Positions 4,001-45,568 of a stretch of 45,568 nucleotides of DNA are shown piece after piece. The position numbers were made by a program, and so were the translations under genes. The notes under the pieces were generated by a model. It was not told the origin of the DNA, made no database searches, and saw only the letters and a program-made list of their open reading frames with translations. How positions within the stretch are numbered: the stretch's first letter is position 1; every line of letters starts with the position of its first letter. The DNA is from a virus. The stretch lies in IMG/VR virus record IMGVR_UViG_3300032307_000462, positions 1-45,568 of that record, one strand, 5' to 3'.

Positions 4001-7000
4001 GGAGAAAGGCTTACCCCAGGATGAGATCGATAACTTCCTGCGCATGTTCCACGAGGAAACCCTTGGCTATCTGATGAACGTCATGGCCAGAAGGGACGCC
4101 GCAGCTAACGCCCCAAAGGAGGGCTTGTTTGCGATCATCATCCGGTGGATCAAGGCCACGATCATTCGCATGGCCTACGCCGGCAGCGAAGGCGGGGAGC
4201 GCGCCCGCGCCGGGAAGGCTATGCGTGGCATCGGCTACGCCAGCTTGATGGCCGACAGCCTGGGAATGAAGAAACTGTCCCAGCTCCTGGAGATCCGGCC
4301 GGGCGACGTCCGGGCGATCGCCCAGGGCTATGTCCGGGCATACGCTTCCGGCAAGGAGGTCGGCATGCCGGATACCAGGAAGGATACGGTTGAGGGTGAC
4401 ACCCAGGAGGCAGCCAAGGACGCCCAAGAAGCGCGCGTCCAGGGTCGCGCCAGCGATCCGGTTACCGACGCTGCCACGTTTAGTAACACCCTGCTGTTCT
4501 CCTGGCGCAAGCCAGGTCAGCCAGCGCCTACCAACGATAAGCTGTCCGGAACCAAGGAGGCTGCTGCCAGGTTTGAGGATGCGCCCAAGGGCCCCGTCGC
4601 CGGCGCCAATGAAAAAGAAGAAAACCTAAGCTACCCGCCGTCGTCTGCCCAGGAGGAGGTTGGTCATGCCAAGTGGGTAGAGCGCAAGCATCCGGAACAA
4701 AGCGAGTTTTCTGTCATTACCCACAAGAGTGGAGTTATCTCGCTTAGCCAGGCGCTTAATCCTACCGGCCCTACTAGAGACTCATCTCTGCTGGTTGCCG
4801 ATGAAAACGGAAACCCGATCGAGTTTCCGCGCGTGTCGTCTATCGCTGCGATCAGCGGCCAGCTGGGAGATCTAGCTGCTCAGCTCGACATCCCGGTGCA
4901 CATCCCGCAAGGCCGACAGGGGACCGGCAAGGATGGTAAGTTTAATGAGATCAAGGGTAAGGATGAGGACGTTACGGACGACGGCCAGATGCTGTCTGGC
5001 TTTGGTCTTGAACACGCGTCCTGGAAGCATGGATGGGAAATGGATGCTCTCGCTGGTAAGGGTGGCTGGGAGGTCGGTAAGCATGTTGAGGCTATTCAGA
5101 AAATAATGGAAGATGCTAGCGACATTGGCGTCATGTATAACGCAGACGGGTCCGTAGGTAAGGTCATGGTTTTCTCACAAAAAACCCAGATGCGCGTAGT
5201 CTTGCAGCGCGTAGGCGGTGACAGCCCGTTCTTCTATGTGGTGACGGCCATGAAGCTTGGTAACGCCGTCAGAAAAGGTAAGCCTGTAAACGCTGAAAAA
5301 CTTAACGTCCCGATCGACAGAGAGACGTTCATGAGAGGCTTGGTTAGCTTCAGCCCGGAGGGAGCTCCGGCTCCGCGAGCGTTTTACTCTGAAGCTAAAA
5401 ACGAAAACCAGACTAACAGCGAAAACCAGGCTAACGAACCTGGCGCCGACTACGGCCAGACCGAGCAGACCGGCGAGCAGCAAGCTGCTGCTGAAGCCGA
5501 GACGCTGGAGAAGCTGCGCGAGGTCCAAGGCAACGGACCCGCTGGCCCCAAGCTGTTCAACGCGATCCCGCCCACCCCGCCGCCTCCTGCGCCGACCACG
5601 CCCACCAGCCCGGCGCCGGCTCCGCTTAACCCGCCGGCGACGAACGACGACATGGCGCGCCGGGTAGGCGACGTCCTGCGCGGCCGATACTTTGACGGCA
5701 TCAGCACCAAGGCGCACCAGAACGCTGAGCGCACCGGCAGCGCAGCTGTCCGGGCTATTGCCGACATTATCCACACCCGTCCTGGGACGGAGAGCCCGTC
5801 CTCTGAGCGCGATCTGCCCAAGGCGATCATGAGCGCGCGCATCAAGTATCAGAACAAGTTTAACCAGATCATGCGCCCGCTGCGCGATCAGCTCAGTCGC
5901 ATGACCAGCGAGCAGCGCGAGCAGTTCTACCGCGAGCTCGTCGATCAGATCACCGGCCGGACCAACATCCAGCCTGGCGTCGCCGGCCACGCGGCAACGC
6001 AGCTGATCGATCTGCTCAAGGAGTTGCACGACTACCGGACCGCAGCCGGCGAGAACCTGGGCCAGGTCCAGCAATACTTCCCGGCGGTCTACAACTCCGA
6101 GCTGATCACGGCCAACCGGACCGCCTTCATCGCGGACGCGACCAGGGCCTACGAGATCGAGCTGTCCCAGGACCCGACCCTTACCCCCCAGGAGATCCAG
6201 GCCAAGGCCGCCGCAGCCGCGGCTGCCCTGTATCGGACCCATACCAGGGGCATGGGCGACGCCGAATGGGCGAGCATCTTCACCAGCGGCCGGGATAACG
6301 CCACGGAGAACAGCTCCAAGGAGCGCGTGTTCGGCCGCCAGGCGCAGGGCATCATGGCCAAGTGGCAGACGCCGGACCCGTTCTATGTGATCAGCCGTTA
6401 CATCGGCAGCTCCGTCAAGCGAGCTGAGCTCGTCCGGCGCTTCGGCCCGGAGGGTGAGAAGTGGGAAGCCATGGCCAACGCCATGGAAACCGACGGCGTC
6501 CCGATCGAGACGATCAACGAGATGGGGCAGCTGGTGAAGCTGGCCGCCGGCCTGGGCGTCACGCCCCTGGATAACTCCGAGCGCATGTTCATGGATACGG
6601 TCAACCTATACACCGCCGCCGCGGCCATGGGTAAGAGCGCCATGAACAACCTGTTTGAGCCTTCGGCCATGGGCATCCGCGGATCTACCGTCGGCAACCC
6701 GTTCCGGACGGTCAGCGCCTACGCCGAAACCTGGGCGCGGTTCGTCCGTAACCTGGTGCAGATGCTGCCGGTCCTGGGCGAGCACGTCGGCCCGACGTTC
6801 TGGCAGGAATACGGCGAGCACATCGGATCTATCCATAACTCCCTGGACGACGCCTGGATGAGCATGCACGCCATGGAGCACGGCATGGAGGAGTCCAACC
6901 CGGCCATGCGCTGGATCACGAACCGGGTCTACCAGGCCAACCTCATGGAGTCTACGGAGAACGCCAAGCTCCAGGCCTCCCATGCCCTGGGTCACGCCTA

Positions 7001-19787: not shown

Positions 19788-20159
19788 ATGAGTAACATCG
19801 AACCCGGCTGGACCGCGAGCGAGCTCGCTGATCTGGTCAACAAACAGACGCACGGCTGTATCCGTGCAAGCGAACGGCTGGTTCGCTTCTATACCAGCCA
19901 ACGCCTCCTGGACCGTCCGGCGCGCACCGATAAGGACGGTCGCCGCGCGATCTACCGGGAGCGCCAGCTTGCGCAGCTGAAGCTTGCCATGGCCCTAAGC
20001 CATCGCGGCATCGGCCTGGACAAGATCCGCGCGATCGCCGGCAACGGCTTCGCGGCCACGTCGGCGCTCAATCACATCCACTCTATGATCGTCGGCCAGG
20101 ACAAGCAGCTCGCCGAGCTCTGCCTGGACGCGATCAAGAAAACCCAAACCAAAAAATAA
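19788..20159 (+). CDS. MerR-like DNA-binding regulator (123 aa)
   Basis: The N-terminal winged-helix pattern WTASELADLVN...IRASERLVRFYTSQRLLDRPARTDKDGRRAIYRERQLAQLKLAMALSHRGIGLDKIRAI matches MerR-family regulators, including the RFYTSQxLL turn and the Y-RERQ-L helix. A short C-terminal helix may dimerise. There are no effector-binding cysteines or domain, so it is probably a simple phage regulator. ATG 19788 follows GGTGCCCACCT, immediately after a terminator, so the gene heads a new transcript with the two genes after it. Confidence 0.75.
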   Translation: MSNIEPGWTASELADLVNKQTHGCIRASERLVRFYTSQRLLDRPARTDKDGRRAIYRERQLAQLKLAMALSHRGIGLDKIRAIAGNGFAATSALNHIHSMIVGQDKQLAELCLDAIKKTQTKK

Positions 20160-20160
20160 C

Positions 20161-20637
20161 ATGTCAGAGATCGACGACGGGGATCTGGCCCCGGAATACC
20201 ACCAGAACAAGAAGAAGATCCCGGCCAAGGTGTTCACCGGCCTGTCCTATGTGATCGTCACGGCGGTCGAGGGCGGCCACTACACCCGCGACGACTACCG
20301 GGAGTGGAAGGAATACGCGCATGCCGACCAGGCTGACGGATCCTTCCGCGCCGGCGTCACCGTGATCCCGAACCGCGACGGGCCCTACCAAGGCCTGGAC
20401 AAGGTCCCGGAGATCCGGGTCACCCCGGAGTGGTTCCACGCGCAGCTCACCAAGCTCGTGACCAAGTCCATGGATCTGCTCGACGACGACGGCAAGTCGG
20501 CGCCTCTGCGCGGCCGGCTGCTCAAGAACGCCGTGCTGCTGCTCATGGGCGACGACGAGGTCGCCGGCGATTGCGACGTGATCGACTCCGGCGCGCTGCT
20601 CCAGGCTGCCGTCTACGGGGAGGTGATCTATGGCTAA
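20161..20637 (+). CDS. Phage protein of unknown function (158 aa)
   Basis: The product is acidic, with VFTGLSYVIVTAVEGGHYTRDDYREWKEY and a middle with VPEIRVTPEWFHAQLTKLVTKSMDLL; mixed alpha/beta by eye. ATG 20161 follows CCCAAACCAAAAAATAAC one base after the MerR-like gene stop, so they are co-transcribed. The last eight bases overlap the next gene. No domain recognised. Confidence 0.6.
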   Translation: MSEIDDGDLAPEYHQNKKKIPAKVFTGLSYVIVTAVEGGHYTRDDYREWKEYAHADQADGSFRAGVTVIPNRDGPYQGLDKVPEIRVTPEWFHAQLTKLVTKSMDLLDDDGKSAPLRGRLLKNAVLLLMGDDEVAGDCDVIDSGALLQAAVYGEVIYG

Positions 20638-20917
20638 GCCTAAGATCACCCTCGCCGCCCGGATCCTGCTCCTAAAGGAGCACCTGGAATACCTCCGGAA
20701 CGATCTGCGCGACGCCCAGATCGAGTCGCTCCATGCGTTCGACGAGCTCCGGGCCCACCTGGAGTTCCAGGTGTCCGGCGCCGGCGCGCTGCCCACGGCT
20801 GAAAAGCCGGATTGGGATCGGCTCCGGTCCCGCGTCTGGCGCTCCCACGCGGTCGAGGCCTACATCAAGGGCCAGATCCAGAAGCTGCGCGATCAGATCA
20901 AGCTCCTGGAGAGCTAA
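20630..20917 (+). CDS. Small helical protein (95 aa)
   Basis: ATG 20630 lies inside the end of the upstream gene, so translation is probably coupled. The protein is two long helices (LLLKEHLEYLRNDLRDAQIESLHAFDELRAHLEF and EAYIKGQIQKLRDQIKLLE) joined by a short linker, consistent with a helical hairpin or dimer. Last gene of the rightward early block; terminator just downstream. Function unknown. Confidence 0.6.
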   Translation: MAKPKITLAARILLLKEHLEYLRNDLRDAQIESLHAFDELRAHLEFQVSGAGALPTAEKPDWDRLRSRVWRSHAVEAYIKGQIQKLRDQIKLLES

Positions 20918-20934
20918 GGCATGGTTGAGACTAC

Positions 20935-20964
20935 AGGCTCCGGCTAACCGCCGGGGCCTTTTTT
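20935..20964 (+). terminator. Rho-independent terminator of the early rightward block
   Basis: Bases 20935-20944 pair with 20950-20959 over 10 bp with one G-U around TAACC, followed by six T residues (20959-20964). Confidence 0.85.
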
Positions 20965-20989
20965 GTGCCCGCAAGCCCGGACACTTGGA

Positions 20990-21200
20990 ACAGTTACCGG
21001 GGCAATTAATTACAACCAGATCCGGTTAACAGATTGATCCGGATCTTTCCGTTAACCAAACCCTGGCGGTTTAATTAACGCCAAACCCGTTTCGCTTTAA
21101 TAAGCCCAGGCGCTATTAACGCGCAGCCGGCTGTAAGCATATGATCACGAGATCGGCCATATTATCTCGTTCGGATAACCCCAGGACCGGTTATCCGAAA
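20990..21200. promoter_or_regulatory. AT-rich inverted-repeat region, candidate origin or operator
   Basis: This non-coding stretch is clearly richer in A+T than the rest. It holds three perfect inverted repeats: AGATCCGG/CCGGATCT (21018-21025, 21039-21046), ACGAGAT/ATCTCGT (21147-21153, 21164-21170) and TTCGGATAACC/GGTTATCCGAA (21170-21180, 21189-21199). Six TTAA-containing elements lie between about 21004 and 21118, including GTTAAC twice and TTAATTAA. The region lies between converging transcripts, where a replication origin or protein-binding region is plausible. No gene is seen from 20918 to 21301. Confidence 0.5.
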
Positions 21201-21267
21201 TAATAGGTCCATTTATCGGATCATCTTGCCTGGACGCCCGGCGCCGGCACGATCCGGCCCACAAAGG

Positions 21268-21297
21268 CCCTCCCCTCTACCGCAAGGCACGGGAGGG
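21268..21297 (-). terminator. Probable terminator for the minus-strand gene at 21302
   Basis: CCCTCCC (21268-21274) pairs with GGGAGGG (21291-21297) around a 16-base loop, just past the stop of the leftward gene. Only three T residues follow on the minus strand, so termination may be partial. Confidence 0.5.
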
Positions 21298-21301
21298 TCG
21301 T

Positions 21302-21652
21302 CTATTTCCGCAGCTTGGCCCGGTAGCGCTTCATGGCCTCAGCCTTAGCTGCGCGCCGGTCCCGCTTCGACGCCTTGATCCGCGTCCGGTGATGCTTGCT
21401 GTCCTGCCTCCAGGCCCTGGCTGCGCGCAGCTGCCCGGCCACGGCGCCATGGAACCACGCGATCAGCGCAGCCAGGCTCGCCGTCACCGGCATGCGCCGC
21501 CGGCACACCTGGAAGGGCACCGCGTGACCAGGCTCCGGGTCCCGATCGGCGCGCGCAGCGCTCTCAGCTGCAGCGAGCTTGGCAGCGAACCCGGTAGATC
21601 CGGATTGCGAGAGACGGTAGACGAGAGACGGGTCTGGATCCTGGTGGGTCAT
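21302..21652 (-). CDS. Small basic protein, unknown function (116 aa)
   Basis: The frame is open further to 21748, but the ATG at 21652 is preceded on its strand by GAAAACACCCCAAA, the AC-rich leader of this genome, and avoids translating the repeat cluster. The N-terminal half is polar, the middle has a hydrophobic stretch (ASLAALIAWFHGAVAG), and the C-terminus is very basic (KRDRRAAKAEAMKRYRAKLRK), suggesting nucleic-acid binding. It is transcribed leftward from the repeat-rich control region and could be its regulator. No family recognised. Confidence 0.5.
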   Translation of the reverse strand: MTHQDPDPSLVYRLSQSGSTGFAAKLAAAESAARADRDPEPGHAVPFQVCRRRMPVTASLAALIAWFHGAVAGQLRAARAWRQDSKHHRTRIKASKRDRRAAKAEAMKRYRAKLRK

Positions 21653-21800
21653 TTTGGGGTGTTTTCTGGTGTTTAGCGAGAGACGGTAGATCACGTCTCT
21701 CGCGTCTCTCGCATGTAGTCTCTCGCGTCCCGGCGCGTCAAAGCCCATCTAAAACAACATGTTACAGCGCGCTGTAGATAGGGCTGTAGATGCGAGAGAC
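21607..21800. repeat. Cluster of a 9-bp repeat GCGAGAGAC / GTCTCTCGC (iteron- or operator-like)
   Basis: GCGAGAGAC occurs at 21607, 21676 and 21792; a one-base variant ACGAGAGAC at 21621; its complement GTCTCTCGC at 21695, 21704 and 21718. The copies at 21676 and 21695 form a perfect inverted repeat with a 10-base spacer. The longer GCGAGAGACGGTAGA occurs twice (21607, 21676), and GCTGTAGAT twice (21771, 21783). The cluster lies around the start of the leftward gene and upstream of the RusA gene, the usual place for operators or origin iterons. The interval 21653-21963 holds no gene. Confidence 0.7.
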
Positions 21801-21963
21801 TGACCACGGGATACTTTACCTATCCCATCTACGCAGCAAACCCCTGTATTTATTGGGCTAACCAGAGGATCCCTACGGGAAGGATACGCTATGCCCATAC
21901 ATGGGCCACGCTTATCCCTGGACTCCCGGCTCACGCCGTCCAGGTGCTTCTATCCTTCTTGCC

Positions 21964-22437
21964 ATGCCGGCGCAGCGCAGCACGTTCCAGGCCGTGAAGA
22001 TCATCATGATCACCCAGGGTCACCCCAGGCCCCAGCCCAGGCCCCGCGTGATCAGAGGCCGCGCGATCTCGACATTAGATCCCCTGGCCAGCTCCTGGAA
22101 GGCCAGGATCCGCGCGTCGAGCTCAGCTATCCCCAGGGAGCTGGGCAGCCTGGCGCCGGGACCCCTCAGCTGCTCCATGGCATTTCTCATGCCGACCAAG
22201 GACGCAGCCAGGTTCGGGAAGCCACATACCCAGGTGCCGGACCTGGACAACCTGGCCAAGCTCGTGCTCGACGCCATCCAGGACACCGGGCTGATCGCGA
22301 ATGACTCCCACGTCGCGCTGCTGAGCGTATCCAAGTCCTGGGCGCCAGCTGACAAGGCCGGCGTGATCGTCGAGCTGGAGAACCTGGAAGCGCAGCCAGG
22401 ACCCCCAGGAACAGCCAGGCCGGATTGGCTGAAATAG
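21964..22437 (+). CDS. RusA-like Holliday junction resolvase (157 aa)
   Basis: The C-terminal part has the RusA signature: PDLDNLAKLVLDAIQDTGLIANDSHV, in which the Asp residues bind metal, followed by a short conserved strand. The N-terminal QGHPRPQPRPR fits the usual start of the fold. The resolvase cuts four-way junctions made by the Sak4/RadD system. The start is uncertain: the frame is open to 21901, and GTG 21994 or ATG 22006 would give lengths closer to RusA relatives. It faces the minus-strand terminase gene, with 56 bases between the two stops. Confidence 0.8.
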   Translation: MPAQRSTFQAVKIIMITQGHPRPQPRPRVIRGRAISTLDPLASSWKARIRASSSAIPRELGSLAPGPLSCSMAFLMPTKDAARFGKPHTQVPDLDNLAKLVLDAIQDTGLIANDSHVALLSVSKSWAPADKAGVIVELENLEAQPGPPGTARPDWLK

Positions 22438-22493
22438 GTCCATACCAGGCATAGGCCGGCCTGGTCAAAGCGCCTCCAGGGCGATCCTAGGCC

Positions 22494-23060
22494 CTACTTT
22501 TTTGGCTCATCCAGGTCCAAAACGTCCTTTTGGGCCGAAACGACCGCTTTTACCGTAGATCTCATATTGTCGAACGTCTGCCGGCCCCGGTTGATGAATT
22601 CCTCCAGCTCGCTCACGCTCATCTCGCTCAGCTGCTTACCGGATCGCTTCAGCCCCAGCTGCAAGCTCGCAGCTACGGCGCTCAGCCCGTGCCCGGACGC
22701 CTCCAGGGTCCACTTGGCAGCCTGGAACCGGACCTGGGCCGGCGACGCCGGATCCGTCATGAGCTCCTGGATCACGTTCCAGGCGCGGCTAGCTCCGGCC
22801 GTCTTGATTTCGACGTCGCGCTTGAGCTCGATCGTCTCCCGGATCCGCGGATTGGCCAGCAGCTCCTTGGCTGCGCCCGGATCCGCGTAGCCGGCAGCCT
22901 TAGCTGCAGCCTTAGCGTCGCCGCCGTTGCCGACGTAGGCTTCGACGTAGCTGAGCTCCTGGTCGGTCAGCTGCGCAGCCTGGCTGCCGGCCTGGACCTG
23001 GAGCTGGCCTTTCCAGGCGTCCTTAGCCTGGTTGAGATTGGTAGGGGTCTTAGGTGTCAT
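22494..23060 (-). CDS. terS: Terminase small subunit (188 aa)
   Basis: LTDQELSYVEAYVGNGGDAKAAAKAAGYADPGAAKELLANPRIRETI (about residues 31-77) is the classic helix-turn-helix and repeat-like start of the Terminase_2 small subunits, which recognise the packaging site. A helical oligomerisation region and an acidic tail follow. It is on the minus strand, while the large subunit is on the plus strand at 26191, about 3 kb away across a divergent promoter region. Its ATG overlaps the TGA of the lysozyme-like gene (ATGA), so the two are co-translated. Family assignment is firm; the unusual arrangement is directly visible. Confidence 0.85.
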   Translation of the reverse strand: MTPKTPTNLNQAKDAWKGQLQVQAGSQAAQLTDQELSYVEAYVGNGGDAKAAAKAAGYADPGAAKELLANPRIRETIELKRDVEIKTAGASRAWNVIQELMTDPASPAQVRFQAAKWTLEASGHGLSAVAASLQLGLKRSGKQLSEMSVSELEEFINRGRQTFDNMRSTVKAVVSAQKDVLDLDEPKK

Positions 23061-41559: not shown

Positions 41560-44500
41560 ATGGCTCTAAACATCAATCCGAATTCGGGAAAAGGATCGAC
41601 GAACCAGCGCGCTCTGCCTCCTGTTCCTCCCGTAGCGCCGACTCCGGAGTTATCTACTCCAGGTGGCGAGCCTGTTGCCGGCCAGATCGGAGCTCTCGCG
41701 CAGATCGTTGCTGCAGCGCAGCGAGGCACAGCAGCCTCTAATCAATTCGCGATCCCCACGTTTGGTTCGCCTGGTGTTTCTCAAGCTGCGCTGCCGAGCC
41801 CGATCGCGCCGCAGCAGCCTGGCATCCCTGCCGGTGTTCCTTCTTCTCTCGCCGGACTGTTCGGCGACGCCGGCGCTCAAGCTGCGCAGCCAACCGGTGG
41901 TCTTTCCGATTACGGACTTGCACCGGCTCCGGAGCTCCAGGGCGCCATGGGGCCTGGAGCTGAAACCGGTGCTATGGCCATGGAGCCCGAAGCTCCTATG
42001 CCCGGCATGCCTGTCCAGCCGGCTGGCCAGCAGGGCTCTGCTCCGATCACCGGAGCCACTACCATTTTCGATCTCGTCTCCCGCGGTCTTGGCGTAAACC
42101 AGGCGCCCCAGGCGCCCCAGGCGCCCCAGGCTCCGGCCATGGCTCAGCCTGGCATGCCGGCGCCGCGCGTCCCGCAGCTGCCGCCGATGCCTCAGCTGCC
42201 GACGCCCACCGGTCCGCAGATCTTGCCTCAGTATGCCGGCGCCGACTCTCGCGCTAACTTTGCACCTGGCGGCACCCCTCAGCTCATGCCGGAGGCCCAG
42301 GCCCGCGTTGACCTGGCCAATGCCCCTACGTTTGACTCCTGGGCAAACCAGCTCCAGCAGATGGGGATCGCCAGCAACCCGGCTGCCGGCACCTTTGGCA
42401 CCGGCGCTCGCCAGCCCCAGCTGCCGCCCATGCCCCAGCTCCCGACCCCGTCGGGTATCCCTTCCGGTCTTGCAGCACCCCAGGCGGCGCCCCAGGCTTC
42501 CCCTTATGTCAACCCGCAAGCCCCCCAGGGTGCTGTTCAAGCACCCGCCGGACCTCAAGCTCCGCGCGGCGGTCAAGGCGCAGCAGCTCCGGCTCAGCAA
42601 GTCCAAGCCCAAGCCCAGCCTTCTGTCGCTCCTGCGCCCGCTGCTGGACCGGCTCCTGCGCCGGCGGTAGACCCCGTCGTCGCCGATCTGCAGCGCCAGA
42701 TCGCAGAGCTGCGCGCGCGTATCCCGGCCGCCCCGGCCCCGGCCGCCCCCGCGCCTCAGCAGCCCCCGGCAGCCCAGGCTGATCCCGGCCGCCCGTATGA
42801 TCCGTCTCGCGTCGAACCCCAGGAGGTTCCGGAGTCGGCCCCCGTCGAGCAGCCCCAGGAGGTTCCCGAAGAAGCCCCGGAGCTTGAGCCCGCGTTCACC
42901 GGCTCTCCTCTTACGGAAGCCAAGCCGGCCGATCCGATCGTCTCTAACGGTGGTATTTCCATCGGCGGCAAGAGCTTTAAGAACGCCAAGGCGATCCCGG
43001 CCAGCATGCTGCAGAAGATCGGCGTCAGCCAGGCCATCCTTTCTCAGTTCGTCGAACACGCCCAGGTCGGCGTCCTTAAGTGGTTCAAGCCGACGATCGA
43101 CAACGAAGCCGACGCGGCTGCGCTGTCCTATGAGTTCCTGCGTAACCAGGCACAGGAGAGCATGCTGGTCATTCTTGCCGACAAGAACGGCAAGCCAATC
43201 AGCGTCCTGCGGCACACCCTAGGAGGCATGGGTCAAACCTCATTCCACGCCAACATCATGGCTGGAGTGGCCGCCGGAACCCCTGGCTGCCGTAAGGTAT
43301 ATGTCGTCCATAACCACCCGTCCGGGACCATGAAGTTTTCGGAGGCCGATATGCTGGCTGCGGTCAACATCCAGAAGCTACTTGAAGGAGTCGGCGTCGA
43401 GTTTTCCGGCAGCCTTGTCGTTGGCGACGCCCAGAACGATCCTGGCACTCGCGGCGAAGGCGCTTACGGTCCTCGTTATATCTTCCACCCTGGCAATAAG
43501 GATACCGTAAAATTCCTCGAAACCTACGCCAAGGACGAGGCATTGTCTAAGCCGATCACCATGGCCGAGGACACCCCTGGCGGCGATCTGACCGCCGGCT
43601 ACCCGGTCGCGCTCACCGAACGCGTGTTTAAGATCCGCGGTAACGCCCTGGCGCCCGCTATTGCCAACGGGACTGATGCGGTCCGTTCTATTGTTCCGCT
43701 TCTGGCCCGTAAGCCTGGCATCGCTTTCCTTGATAAGGGAAACCGGGTTATGGCCGTTCTTCCGCTTAGCCTTCAAGAGATGGCCGCACTTGCTACGGTT
43801 ACCAACAAGCGCGGAACCATGGGCATCGCTCAGAGCAACACGCAGCGACTTCCGAGGACCACGAGCTCGACGATCGACGTCGAGTCCACCGCCCAGGACA
43901 ACCCTCCTCTTGCCAGGATCCTAACCGTCCTGGAACGTGCTAATGCTGACGGTATCATTATCAGCGTAGGCGATGCCAGCAACGACAGCCAGGAAGCAGT
44001 CAATGCGGTGATCAACGTCAAGACGATGGCTGGAAGATCTAAGATCGGCGTCTTGGACACGATTAATAATGAGCGCAACTTTGGTCCTTATTTCGGTCCC
44101 AAAGCTGACACGCTTGGCGGCACCAACGCTACTCCTAAGCTTCCGACCGGTGAGCGCCTGGGCTTCCGCGAGGGCGACGAGGAGTATGATCCGGCCCCGA
44201 TCGAGAACGAAGATCTGGCCCAGGACTACCCGGAAGTCATGGCTAACCGCAAGGCGACGCAGCGCGCCGACGGCGGCCAGGATGGCGGCGCCGGCATCGA
44301 AGGCATCGTCCGCAACGGCCTGGAAGAAGGTAACGTCAGCGAGACTAACCCGGAAGATCCGAACGCCGGCGCAGAGTTCGCCCGCCAGGAACGCGAAGCT
44401 GGCGCCAGGGTCAACCAGGACAGCGGCCTGGAGAACGCCACGCCGGCCGAGCCTATCATTAAGAAAACCCGCAAGCCTCGCGCTAAGCCGGCTGCTCCTA

Positions 44501-45568
44501 ACCCGTCTGCCTTCCCGACCAAGCTCGATAGCACCCTCCCGTTCGGTCGCCTTACCGGTGATCAGATGGCTCAGTTCGGTCTGTCCGACGCCATGCTCGA
44601 TCAGTTCGTCGAGCACTCCACGACCGGCCACGTCATGTCCGGCGTCGAGTTCGTCAAGAGCGCCGAGGACGCAGCCCACGTCGTGGCTGGTCTGCGCAAG
44701 CGCCCCCAGGAACAGGTGATCCTGCTGATCACGGACAAGAACGGCCGTCCAATCCAGATCGCCGAGCACATGCTCTCCCAGCCAGCGTCTTGCGGCTTCA
44801 ACCCTGGTATCCTTATCGGCACCGCGGCCAGCACCCCTGGCGCAGCCAAGATCTGGTTCATCCATAACCACCCGTCCGGTAAGCCTACCCTGTCGCCGGC
44901 TGACATTAGCGCCGGGGGCAACATCCAGAGGCTGACCGAAGCTGCCAACCTTAAGTATGAAGGGACGATGGCTATCGCCGGAACCCGGTTCGCCCAGATG
45001 ACCCCGTCCGGACGGATCGAAGGCAACATGGCGATCAAGGCTGCGCCCCGTAAGTTCAAGGTTCCGATCACCGAACGCATGTTTGCGTTCCGCGTCAGCC
45101 AGGACGCCAAGCAGATCAGCGACCCGGCCATCGCCATGGCCGAAGCCGAGCGTATCTTTGGCCAAACTCAGCCTGGCCTTATGCTCCTGGATAACAGCAA
45201 CCGCCTGGTTGCCACAATCCCCCTGGCTGCCGACGTGCTCCAGGCCATGAAGGCCAAGATCCCAGGCACGGACCAGACCGGCTTCAACCGGTATGTGGCC
45301 GGCATCGACCGATCTAACCCGGTCAACGCCATGATCTATACGGCCGACGTAGATGCGGGCGTTGCCCGCAAGATCATCCAGAACATCAGCGGTATGGCTG
45401 GTGCCACCAAGATCAACGTCCTGGACGCGTTCGGCGTCGGCGGTATCAGCCGTCAATCCGACATTCGCACCTACGGCGCCGACTTCAATGAGTCGGCTGC
45501 CGAATACGATCCGGAAGGCGGCCAGCCCCAGGGCGAACCCAAGACCCTCCGCGACGTCGTAGACCAAG
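41560..45568 (+). CDS. Giant polyvalent virion protein, 5' part (two RadC/JAB-like repeats)
   Basis: ATG 41560 follows TAAGACACCAAC and opens a frame that runs to the window edge without a stop. Residues 1-460 are a Pro/Ala/Gln-rich low-complexity arm. Then come two RadC/JAB-like repeats: HNHPSG with first His at residue 584 and SEAD after it, and HNHPSG at residue 1102 with SPAD. The His-x-His and Ser-x-x-Asp pattern is that of JAMM/RadC folds. Each JAB unit is preceded by a GLSDAMLDQFVEH-like helix and followed by a partner segment, so the repeat unit is about 340 residues. The gene continues at window positions 1-7949. The protein is probably carried in the virion; JAB activity, if any, would be a zinc-dependent hydrolase of unknown substrate. 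Confidence 0.88.
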   Translation, partial: MALNINPNSGKGSTNQRALPPVPPVAPTPELSTPGGEPVAGQIGALAQIVAAAQRGTAASNQFAIPTFGSPGVSQAALPSPIAPQQPGIPAGVPSSLAGLFGDAGAQAAQPTGGLSDYGLAPAPELQGAMGPGAETGAMAMEPEAPMPGMPVQPAGQQGSAPITGATTIFDLVSRGLGVNQAPQAPQAPQAPAMAQPGMPAPRVPQLPPMPQLPTPTGPQILPQYAGADSRANFAPGGTPQLMPEAQARVDLANAPTFDSWANQLQQMGIASNPAAGTFGTGARQPQLPPMPQLPTPSGIPSGLAAPQAAPQASPYVNPQAPQGAVQAPAGPQAPRGGQGAAAPAQQVQAQAQPSVAPAPAAGPAPAPAVDPVVADLQRQIAELRARIPAAPAPAAPAPQQPPAAQADPGRPYDPSRVEPQEVPESAPVEQPQEVPEEAPELEPAFTGSPLTEAKPADPIVSNGGISIGGKSFKNAKAIPASMLQKIGVSQAILSQFVEHAQVGVLKWFKPTIDNEADAAALSYEFLRNQAQESMLVILADKNGKPISVLRHTLGGMGQTSFHANIMAGVAAGTPGCRKVYVVHNHPSGTMKFSEADMLAAVNIQKLLEGVGVEFSGSLVVGDAQNDPGTRGEGAYGPRYIFHPGNKDTVKFLETYAKDEALSKPITMAEDTPGGDLTAGYPVALTERVFKIRGNALAPAIANGTDAVRSIVPLLARKPGIAFLDKGNRVMAVLPLSLQEMAALATVTNKRGTMGIAQSNTQRLPRTTSSTIDVESTAQDNPPLARILTVLERANADGIIISVGDASNDSQEAVNAVINVKTMAGRSKIGVLDTINNERNFGPYFGPKADTLGGTNATPKLPTGERLGFREGDEEYDPAPIENEDLAQDYPEVMANRKATQRADGGQDGGAGIEGIVRNGLEEGNVSETNPEDPNAGAEFARQEREAGARVNQDSGLENATPAEPIIKKTRKPRAKPAAPNPSAFPTKLDSTLPFGRLTGDQMAQFGLSDAMLDQFVEHSTTGHVMSGVEFVKSAEDAAHVVAGLRKRPQEQVILLITDKNGRPIQIAEHMLSQPASCGFNPGILIGTAASTPGAAKIWFIHNHPSGKPTLSPADISAGGNIQRLTEAANLKYEGTMAIAGTRFAQMTPSGRIEGNMAIKAAPRKFKVPITERMFAFRVSQDAKQISDPAIAMAEAERIFGQTQPGLMLLDNSNRLVATIPLAADVLQAMKAKIPGTDQTGFNRYVAGIDRSNPVNAMIYTADVDAGVARKIIQNISGMAGATKINVLDAFGVGGISRQSDIRTYGADFNESAAEYDPEGGQPQGEPKTLRDVVDQ
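42100..42132 (+). repeat. Short tandem repeat coding for Gln-Ala-Pro
   Basis: The 9-base unit CAGGCGCCC is repeated three times from 42100 and followed by a diverged fourth copy, encoding NQAPQAPQAPQAPQAP in the low-complexity arm of the giant protein. Such repeats change length easily by slippage. Confidence 0.8.
44495..45568 (+). repeat. Terminal homologous copy B of the JAB-repeat segment
   Basis: This segment is the partner of copy A at 1-1071. It contains the second JAB repeat of the 5' part and ends exactly at the sequence that precedes the A11 run in copy A. Joining 45568 to 1072 keeps the reading frame, and so does joining 45568 to 1. Confidence 0.9.

Follow-up and report, generated by a model that had tools for sequence, protein, structure and literature searches.

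Does an AT-rich island marked by inverted repeats represent the replication origin of a phage genome, or does it have another function? The question was raised by what we call the window, the whole stretch of DNA that was analyzed (45,568 nt), which is the whole of IMG/VR virus record IMGVR_UViG_3300032307_000462 and is classed as linear. With a gene set that includes a terminase large subunit (TerL), a portal, a major head protein, and an internal virion protein, along with a helicase, a Cas4-type exonuclease, and a primase/polymerase in its left part, the phage is lytic-looking and podovirus-like. Among named phages, its TerL is closest to those of Microcystis phage Mae-Yong1326-1 (51.8%) and Rhizobium phage RHph_N65 (50.7%). 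A megablast search of positions 10000-34000 against named phages gave no match, a blastn search with positions 20600-22600 produced just short, weak matches in nine records, and no named phage had a match to the holin-like protein of the window. Scans of the window yielded no Rfam family over the gathering score and no tRNA.

The island consists of two larger modules, A and B, in the non-coding spacer between an operon on the + strand and gene X, which converges on it from the minus strand (Table 1). Genes for a RusA-type resolvase and the terminase small subunit (TerS) adjoin the gene X side. Homologues of gene X were found in contigs L084 to L089, L009, L109 to L111, L123, and L135. The protein matched no Pfam family over the cut-off, and its AlphaFold model is helical with a pLDDT of 67.6, too uncertain for a fold search. 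T1, the terminator of the + operon, is retained in L085, L086, and L087.

Table 1. Positions of the island's features and of neighboring genes in the window
Feature	Position	Strand	Remarks
MerR-like wHTH protein	19788..20159	+	PF13411 over cut-off; start codon placed by eye
+ operon	ends 20917	+	closed by T1
T1, intrinsic terminator of + operon	20935..20965	+	10-pair stem then TTTTTGTGCC
Module A, TTAA-box array	about 21004..21122		TTAA at 21006, 21026, 21052, 21071, 21075, 21097, 21116
8-bp inverted repeat AGATCCGG/CCGGATCT	21018-21025/21039-21046		spacer 13
7-bp inverted repeat GGTTAAC/GTTAACC	21024-21030/21051-21057		spacer 20; interleaved with 8-bp repeat
Module A core palindrome TTAATA-N11-TATTAA	21097..21119		syntenic in L084, L085, L089, L090, L020
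Module B, imperfect palindrome of ~105-110 nt	about 21126..21242		profile match 21131-21229
Additional 7-bp inverted repeat	21147-21153/21164-21170		from the same island scan
11-bp inverted repeat, inner half-sites TTCGGATAACC / GGTTATCCGAA	21170-21180/21189-21199		spacer 8
T2, second stem-loop CCCTCCCC...GGGAGGG	21267..21299		read by eye
Gene X, 116 aa, basic, no assigned function	21302..21652	-	convergent with + operon
9-bp repeat cluster GCGAGAGAC	21607..21800	both orientations	six exact copies and one near copy
RusA-type Holliday junction resolvase	21994..22437	+	PF05866, E 9.5e-12
Terminase small subunit (TerS)	22494..23060	-	phrog_51; PF03592 over cut-off

The initial annotation described an AT-rich island with three perfect inverted repeats (arms of 8, 7, and 11 bp) and several TTAA elements, and this description holds. 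All three repeats were recovered by our scan for perfect inverted repeats with arms of at least 7 bp and spacers of up to 25 nt. The island contains the lowest-GC 211-nt stretch of the record (GC 0.455, at 21004), and TTAA occurs seven times in positions 20966-21235 versus 1.46 times per kb elsewhere. The 11-bp pair is the sole perfect repeat of at least 11 bp in the record. When the whole record was shuffled with dinucleotides preserved, 39 of 100 shuffles had at least one such repeat, so that finding one in 45 kb is unsurprising, and a shuffled record could contain a 211-nt stretch that beats the island in summed arm length (up to 44 vs 33). When the 211-nt island itself was shuffled 1000 times, none of the shuffles reached its summed arm length or its 11-bp arm. 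In addition, the fold of positions 20970-21310 was more stable than that of 100/100 shuffles (z of -4.05 as DNA and -4.81 as RNA). On their own, the shuffle statistics are modest, whereas conservation in relatives is strong evidence for the island. Compared in 50-nt steps, the window and L085 share 84-98% identity across the spacer (20950-21199), which is similar in this respect to the surrounding genes and better kept than the gene just upstream of the island (20700-20899; 50-74%).

The 11-bp repeat is the tip of the much longer palindrome of module B. Its DNA fold has a z of -3.45, with 0/200 shuffles as stable. It is also the best-scoring imperfect palindrome of the record with a score of 30, but five shuffles scored 24, 28, 24, 26, and 29, and so the score alone proves little. 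The initial annotation had proposed a search for the repeat in related genomes, which located the long repeat in ten contigs (the window, L084, L085, L088, L009, L013, L109, L110, L111, and L123), in each case in the interval that separates T1 from the end of gene X. When nine of the ten palindromes were combined into a profile, it matched one place per contig, with no second copy above chance in the searched loci, the complete L085 contig among them. A 20-base outer-arm pattern, run against viral_contigs and genome_contigs, returned kin plus three coding stretches without a palindrome. The pattern CGGATAACC-N8-GGTTATCCG was found in three stretches, in L083 and L084, which are kin, and in L082, which has a weak match to the profile (9.9 bits).

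What is conserved in module B is a half-site, TTCGG-NN-AAC, in which TTCGG and AAC are constant in 20/20 arms of the ten contigs. The middle two positions vary and are equal between arms in 3/10 contigs, and the loop is 6, 8, or 9 nt long. The two arms of one palindrome pair about as well when arms are exchanged between contigs (own vs swapped, -24.8 vs -23.0 kcal/mol as DNA; arm-swap permutations as RNA gave p of 0.14 and 0.05 on the + strand and 0.35 and 0.13 on the minus strand), so that no clear coevolution is seen and the case for an RNA helix is weak. With its fixed TTCGG and AAC, its swappable arms, and its free loop, we call module B a sequence-constrained hairpin. In seven of nine measured contigs, the palindrome overlaps the stop of gene X or begins within ~13 nt of it, while the distance in the window and L084 is about 60-72 nt. 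Minus-strand RNA folds more stably in 7/9 sequences; in L088 and L111, the + strand gives the better fold. Only in L084 is the fold weakened, with 15/200 shuffles as stable.

Module B resembles intrinsic or bidirectional terminators between convergent genes in its position and its strong stem-loop. It differs from them in its conserved half-site sequence, and T1 already ends the + operon. We rejected an intrinsic terminator for module B, as the hairpin is followed by no U-run and a scan of 20600-22100 found T1 only. With 11-bp inverted arms around an 8-bp spacer, the window's repeat also resembles loxP- or dif-like core sites. Readings as a dif-, loxP-, or protelomerase-like site were dropped, however, since the spacer and the center vary in homologues and no recombinase gene was found.

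The claim that the island is the best candidate for the replication origin was not supported. Like iteron or inverted-repeat phage origins, the island is AT-rich and carries repeats and palindromes, its GC content is the lowest of the record, and a repeat cluster lies 400-600 bp away. Yet the island is dispensable in two near relatives, L086 and L087, whose incomplete contigs keep the repeat cluster without it, and module B is also missing in L020, L026, L028, L040, L089, and L090. The third-codon-position GC skew of + strand genes is near-equal on both sides (-0.18 to the left and -0.157 to the right), which indicates no switch at the island, although unidirectional replication would show none. 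The record's single match to a DnaA box (TTWTNCACA) lies at 5767, 15 kb away from the island. We therefore consider it very unlikely that the island, together with the 9-bp repeats, is the origin or a part of it.

The 9-bp cluster is a separate feature outside the island, and exact copies of GCGAGAGAC occur nowhere else in the record. Because it stays in L086 and L087, it is a better origin or operator candidate than the island. By eye, the region upstream of RusA carries lineage-specific repeats in each relative looked at, namely, GCGAGAGAC in the window and in L086/L087 and GAGGAA/TTCCTC, GAGGACG, or TGTGTGGA elsewhere; at the cluster's position, the repeats of relatives overlap in part with the 5' end of gene X. 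This whole region is a better candidate for an origin or an operator than the island.

Module A has a regular geometry. Its TTAA boxes are spaced by 20, 26, 19, 4, 22, and 19, identically in L084 and nearly so in L085, which can be written as an array of 19-(4)-22-19 plus two further boxes on the left. The core, TTAATA-N11-TATTAA, was found in the window, L084, L085, L020, L089, and L090, where the gap is always 11 and the site always syntenic. In 85 GC-rich loci (1,016,360 bases), these six contigs are the sole matches with at most one mismatch. With two mismatches allowed, the core was absent from L009, L088, L109, L110, L111, L123, L013, L026, L028, L040, and others. A broader scan of viral_contigs with a 26-base pattern returned 22 stretches, three in kin, 11 in AT-rich contigs, and eight in GC-rich contigs. 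The matches in AT-rich contigs (GC of at most 0.46; most lie within long open frames) look like chance, and the one in L139, which by eye lies within a predicted signal-peptide coding stretch, may be chance as well. Since L129, L140, and L147 form a group of relatives and L131 and L146 nearly duplicate each other, the eight extra GC-rich contigs amount to fewer lineages. In 8/13 inspected contigs, the pair is accompanied by another TTAA at a distance of exactly 22 bp, and the arrays of L140 and L147 read 19-22-19. By our own grouping, the eight contigs with the 22-bp box make up about four lineages: the window clade, L089, L135, and L129/L140/L147. In L135, TerS and gene X again flank module A, and RusA lies beyond.

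This geometry suits a dimeric or tetrameric protein with inverted half-sites. The half-sites, about GCKTTAATA, would lie 19 bp apart within a pair and 22 bp between pairs, and module A may be an operator or a looping array for such a DNA-binding protein from the phage or its host. A broader version of this idea, which we regard as possible but doubtful, is that module A is an undescribed phage operator with a rigid 19-22-19 bp layout of GCKTTAATA half-sites, present once per genome in several GC-rich environmental phage groups with differing gene neighborhoods and putatively protein-bound, and that module B is its lineage-specific, flexible-loop hairpin partner. Literature searches found neither module described, which is not proof of absence, and a 58-nt query of the array had no match among named phages and plasmids.

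Several candidate identities for the array were tried and rejected. The MerR-like protein (19788..20159), a candidate binder of module A, is not co-distributed with the array: MerR_1 scored over the cut-off in 5/21 records, with the array in G000 and G002 and without it in G003, G004, and G034, and the array occurs without a MerR over the cut-off in G008, G012, G021, G023, and G025-G028. CtrA boxes (TTAA-N7-TTAA) do not occur in the window. In the phylum of the Acetobacter genome G036, the strict pattern GCGTTAATA-N11-TATTAACGC was found in 0/398 genomes, a count that says little because this form also misses the window's own site. The Cox box of phage P2 is TTAAAGNCA, and some boxes of module A read TTAAAGCCA, which we take to fit it. 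In P2-like phages, operators of recombination directionality factors (RDFs) or Cox-Apl proteins repeat in direct orientation at intervals of about one helix turn (PMC7498355). Module A is like these operators in having multiple AT-rich boxes, arranged in phase, close to control regions of the phage, but its boxes form inverted pairs, 19 bp within and 22 bp between, and direct one-turn repeats of the RDF/Cox type were not found. The setting differs too, as the window has no tyrosine integrase match.

We tentatively favor, as the most probable reading, a composite control element that is non-coding and lies where the 3' ends of two convergent transcription units meet. A palindrome kept at one site in ten contigs, a module A pair unique to its site, and the conservation of the spacer argue for it. 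Module B would most likely work as the 3' stem-loop of the minus-strand transcript of gene X, a single-copy hairpin directly behind the gene that may bound and protect the transcript and insulate the two operons, while a specific protein may recognize its half-sites. In favor of action as RNA are the closeness of the palindrome to the gene X stop, the more stable minus-strand RNA in most sequences, and the free loop length; the lack of clear coevolution between the arms and the better + strand folds of L088 and L111 speak against an RNA hairpin.

Alternatively, module B could act purely as DNA, with nested inverted half-sites bound by a protein of the phage or its host (an operator, silencer, centromere-like site, or cruciform site) and no role in RNA. 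The initial annotation had likewise named a dimeric protein or a cruciform for the 11-bp repeat, which is possible. Consistent with action as DNA, the half-site sequence is conserved without covariation, each copy scores against the profile on both strands, and the adjoining module A has operator-like geometry. However, loops of 6, 8, or 9 nt shift the helical phase between half-sites and fit a rigid DNA dimer poorly, there is no notable promoter to regulate (one weak match vs 0.6 expected by chance), and the binding protein is only putative. Both readings stand, with action purely as DNA a possibility that we rate below the control element.

The modules have been lost in one lineage. L086 and L087 are close relatives of the window (TerS 95% and 94% identical), and neither module had a match in the whole of these contigs (32.6 kb and 18.4 kb; incomplete genomes). 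The entire spacer is missing, and gene X abuts the T1 stem-loop, which could replace the lost hairpin at the end of gene X. On a RusA tree with moderate support inside the group, the palindrome label needs two changes, which a single gain plus a loss in L086/L087 could account for.

Such presence and absence between near relatives might also be expected of a mobile or relic element, such as a MITE-like palindrome or a relic attP. Furthermore, T2 (CCCTCCC/GGGAGGG) lies to the right of the palindrome in the window and L084, to the left in L110 and L111, and is absent in L085, and in the L142 contig, module A is near an integrase gene and a tRNA-end-like sequence, in which ARAGORN called no tRNA. 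Nevertheless, the palindrome occupies one place per contig, pattern searches found no dispersed copies, and the scans of both contig sets gave the same site plus the three coding matches, attributable to chance. Tyrosine integrase (PF00589) was not found in G000, G002, G003, or G004, while the control was positive in 14/14 genomes. On balance, a mobile or relic origin is unlikely. As a separate observation, positions 5570-5900 of L148 (the contig of L142) are attP-like, with TTGCGGACTT repeats on both sides and a tRNA-end-like sequence, both read by eye; the integrase gene adjoins this region, and the module A palindrome lies just outside it.

The proximity of RusA and TerS, both within 2 kb, raises the further idea of a pac-like packaging site, at which RusA would cut a cruciform and the small terminase subunit would make use of it. 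Module A lies just behind TerS in L089 and L135, and three short contigs, L013 (at 1), L084 (6981), and L113 (3435), end within ~150 bp of the island or T1. These ends may be assembly breaks or physical ends, and contig breaks at palindromes are a common assembly effect. The site is absent in the L086 and L087 contigs, and the contigs of the window and L085 run through it. L085 (45,103 b) is near-equal in size to the window and spans the window's two ends, opening elsewhere, and the window in turn spans the ends of L085; the map is thus circular or permuted. Of all the readings, packaging appears to us the least probable.

Our analysis of the island corrects the assignment of an origin on the basis of repeats only. 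Should the array prove to be a genuine operator common to several uncultured phage groups, it would point to a shared regulator or host factor and would provide a handle for finding that regulator and, through it, the host. Likewise, a hairpin with fixed half-sites, a free loop, and one clean natural deletion offers a ready comparison for separating action as DNA from action as RNA.

Two further observations concern the record and its more distant relatives. The two ends of the window (positions 1-1071 and 44495-45568) each carry a 1.07-kb stretch, 83.7% identical between them, that is single copy in L085, and the record is cut within a giant + strand reading frame that continues across the end-to-end junction. 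Other long imperfect palindromes occur in more distant relatives, at 550-653 of L028, 1017-1110 of L044, and 12551-12710 of L054.
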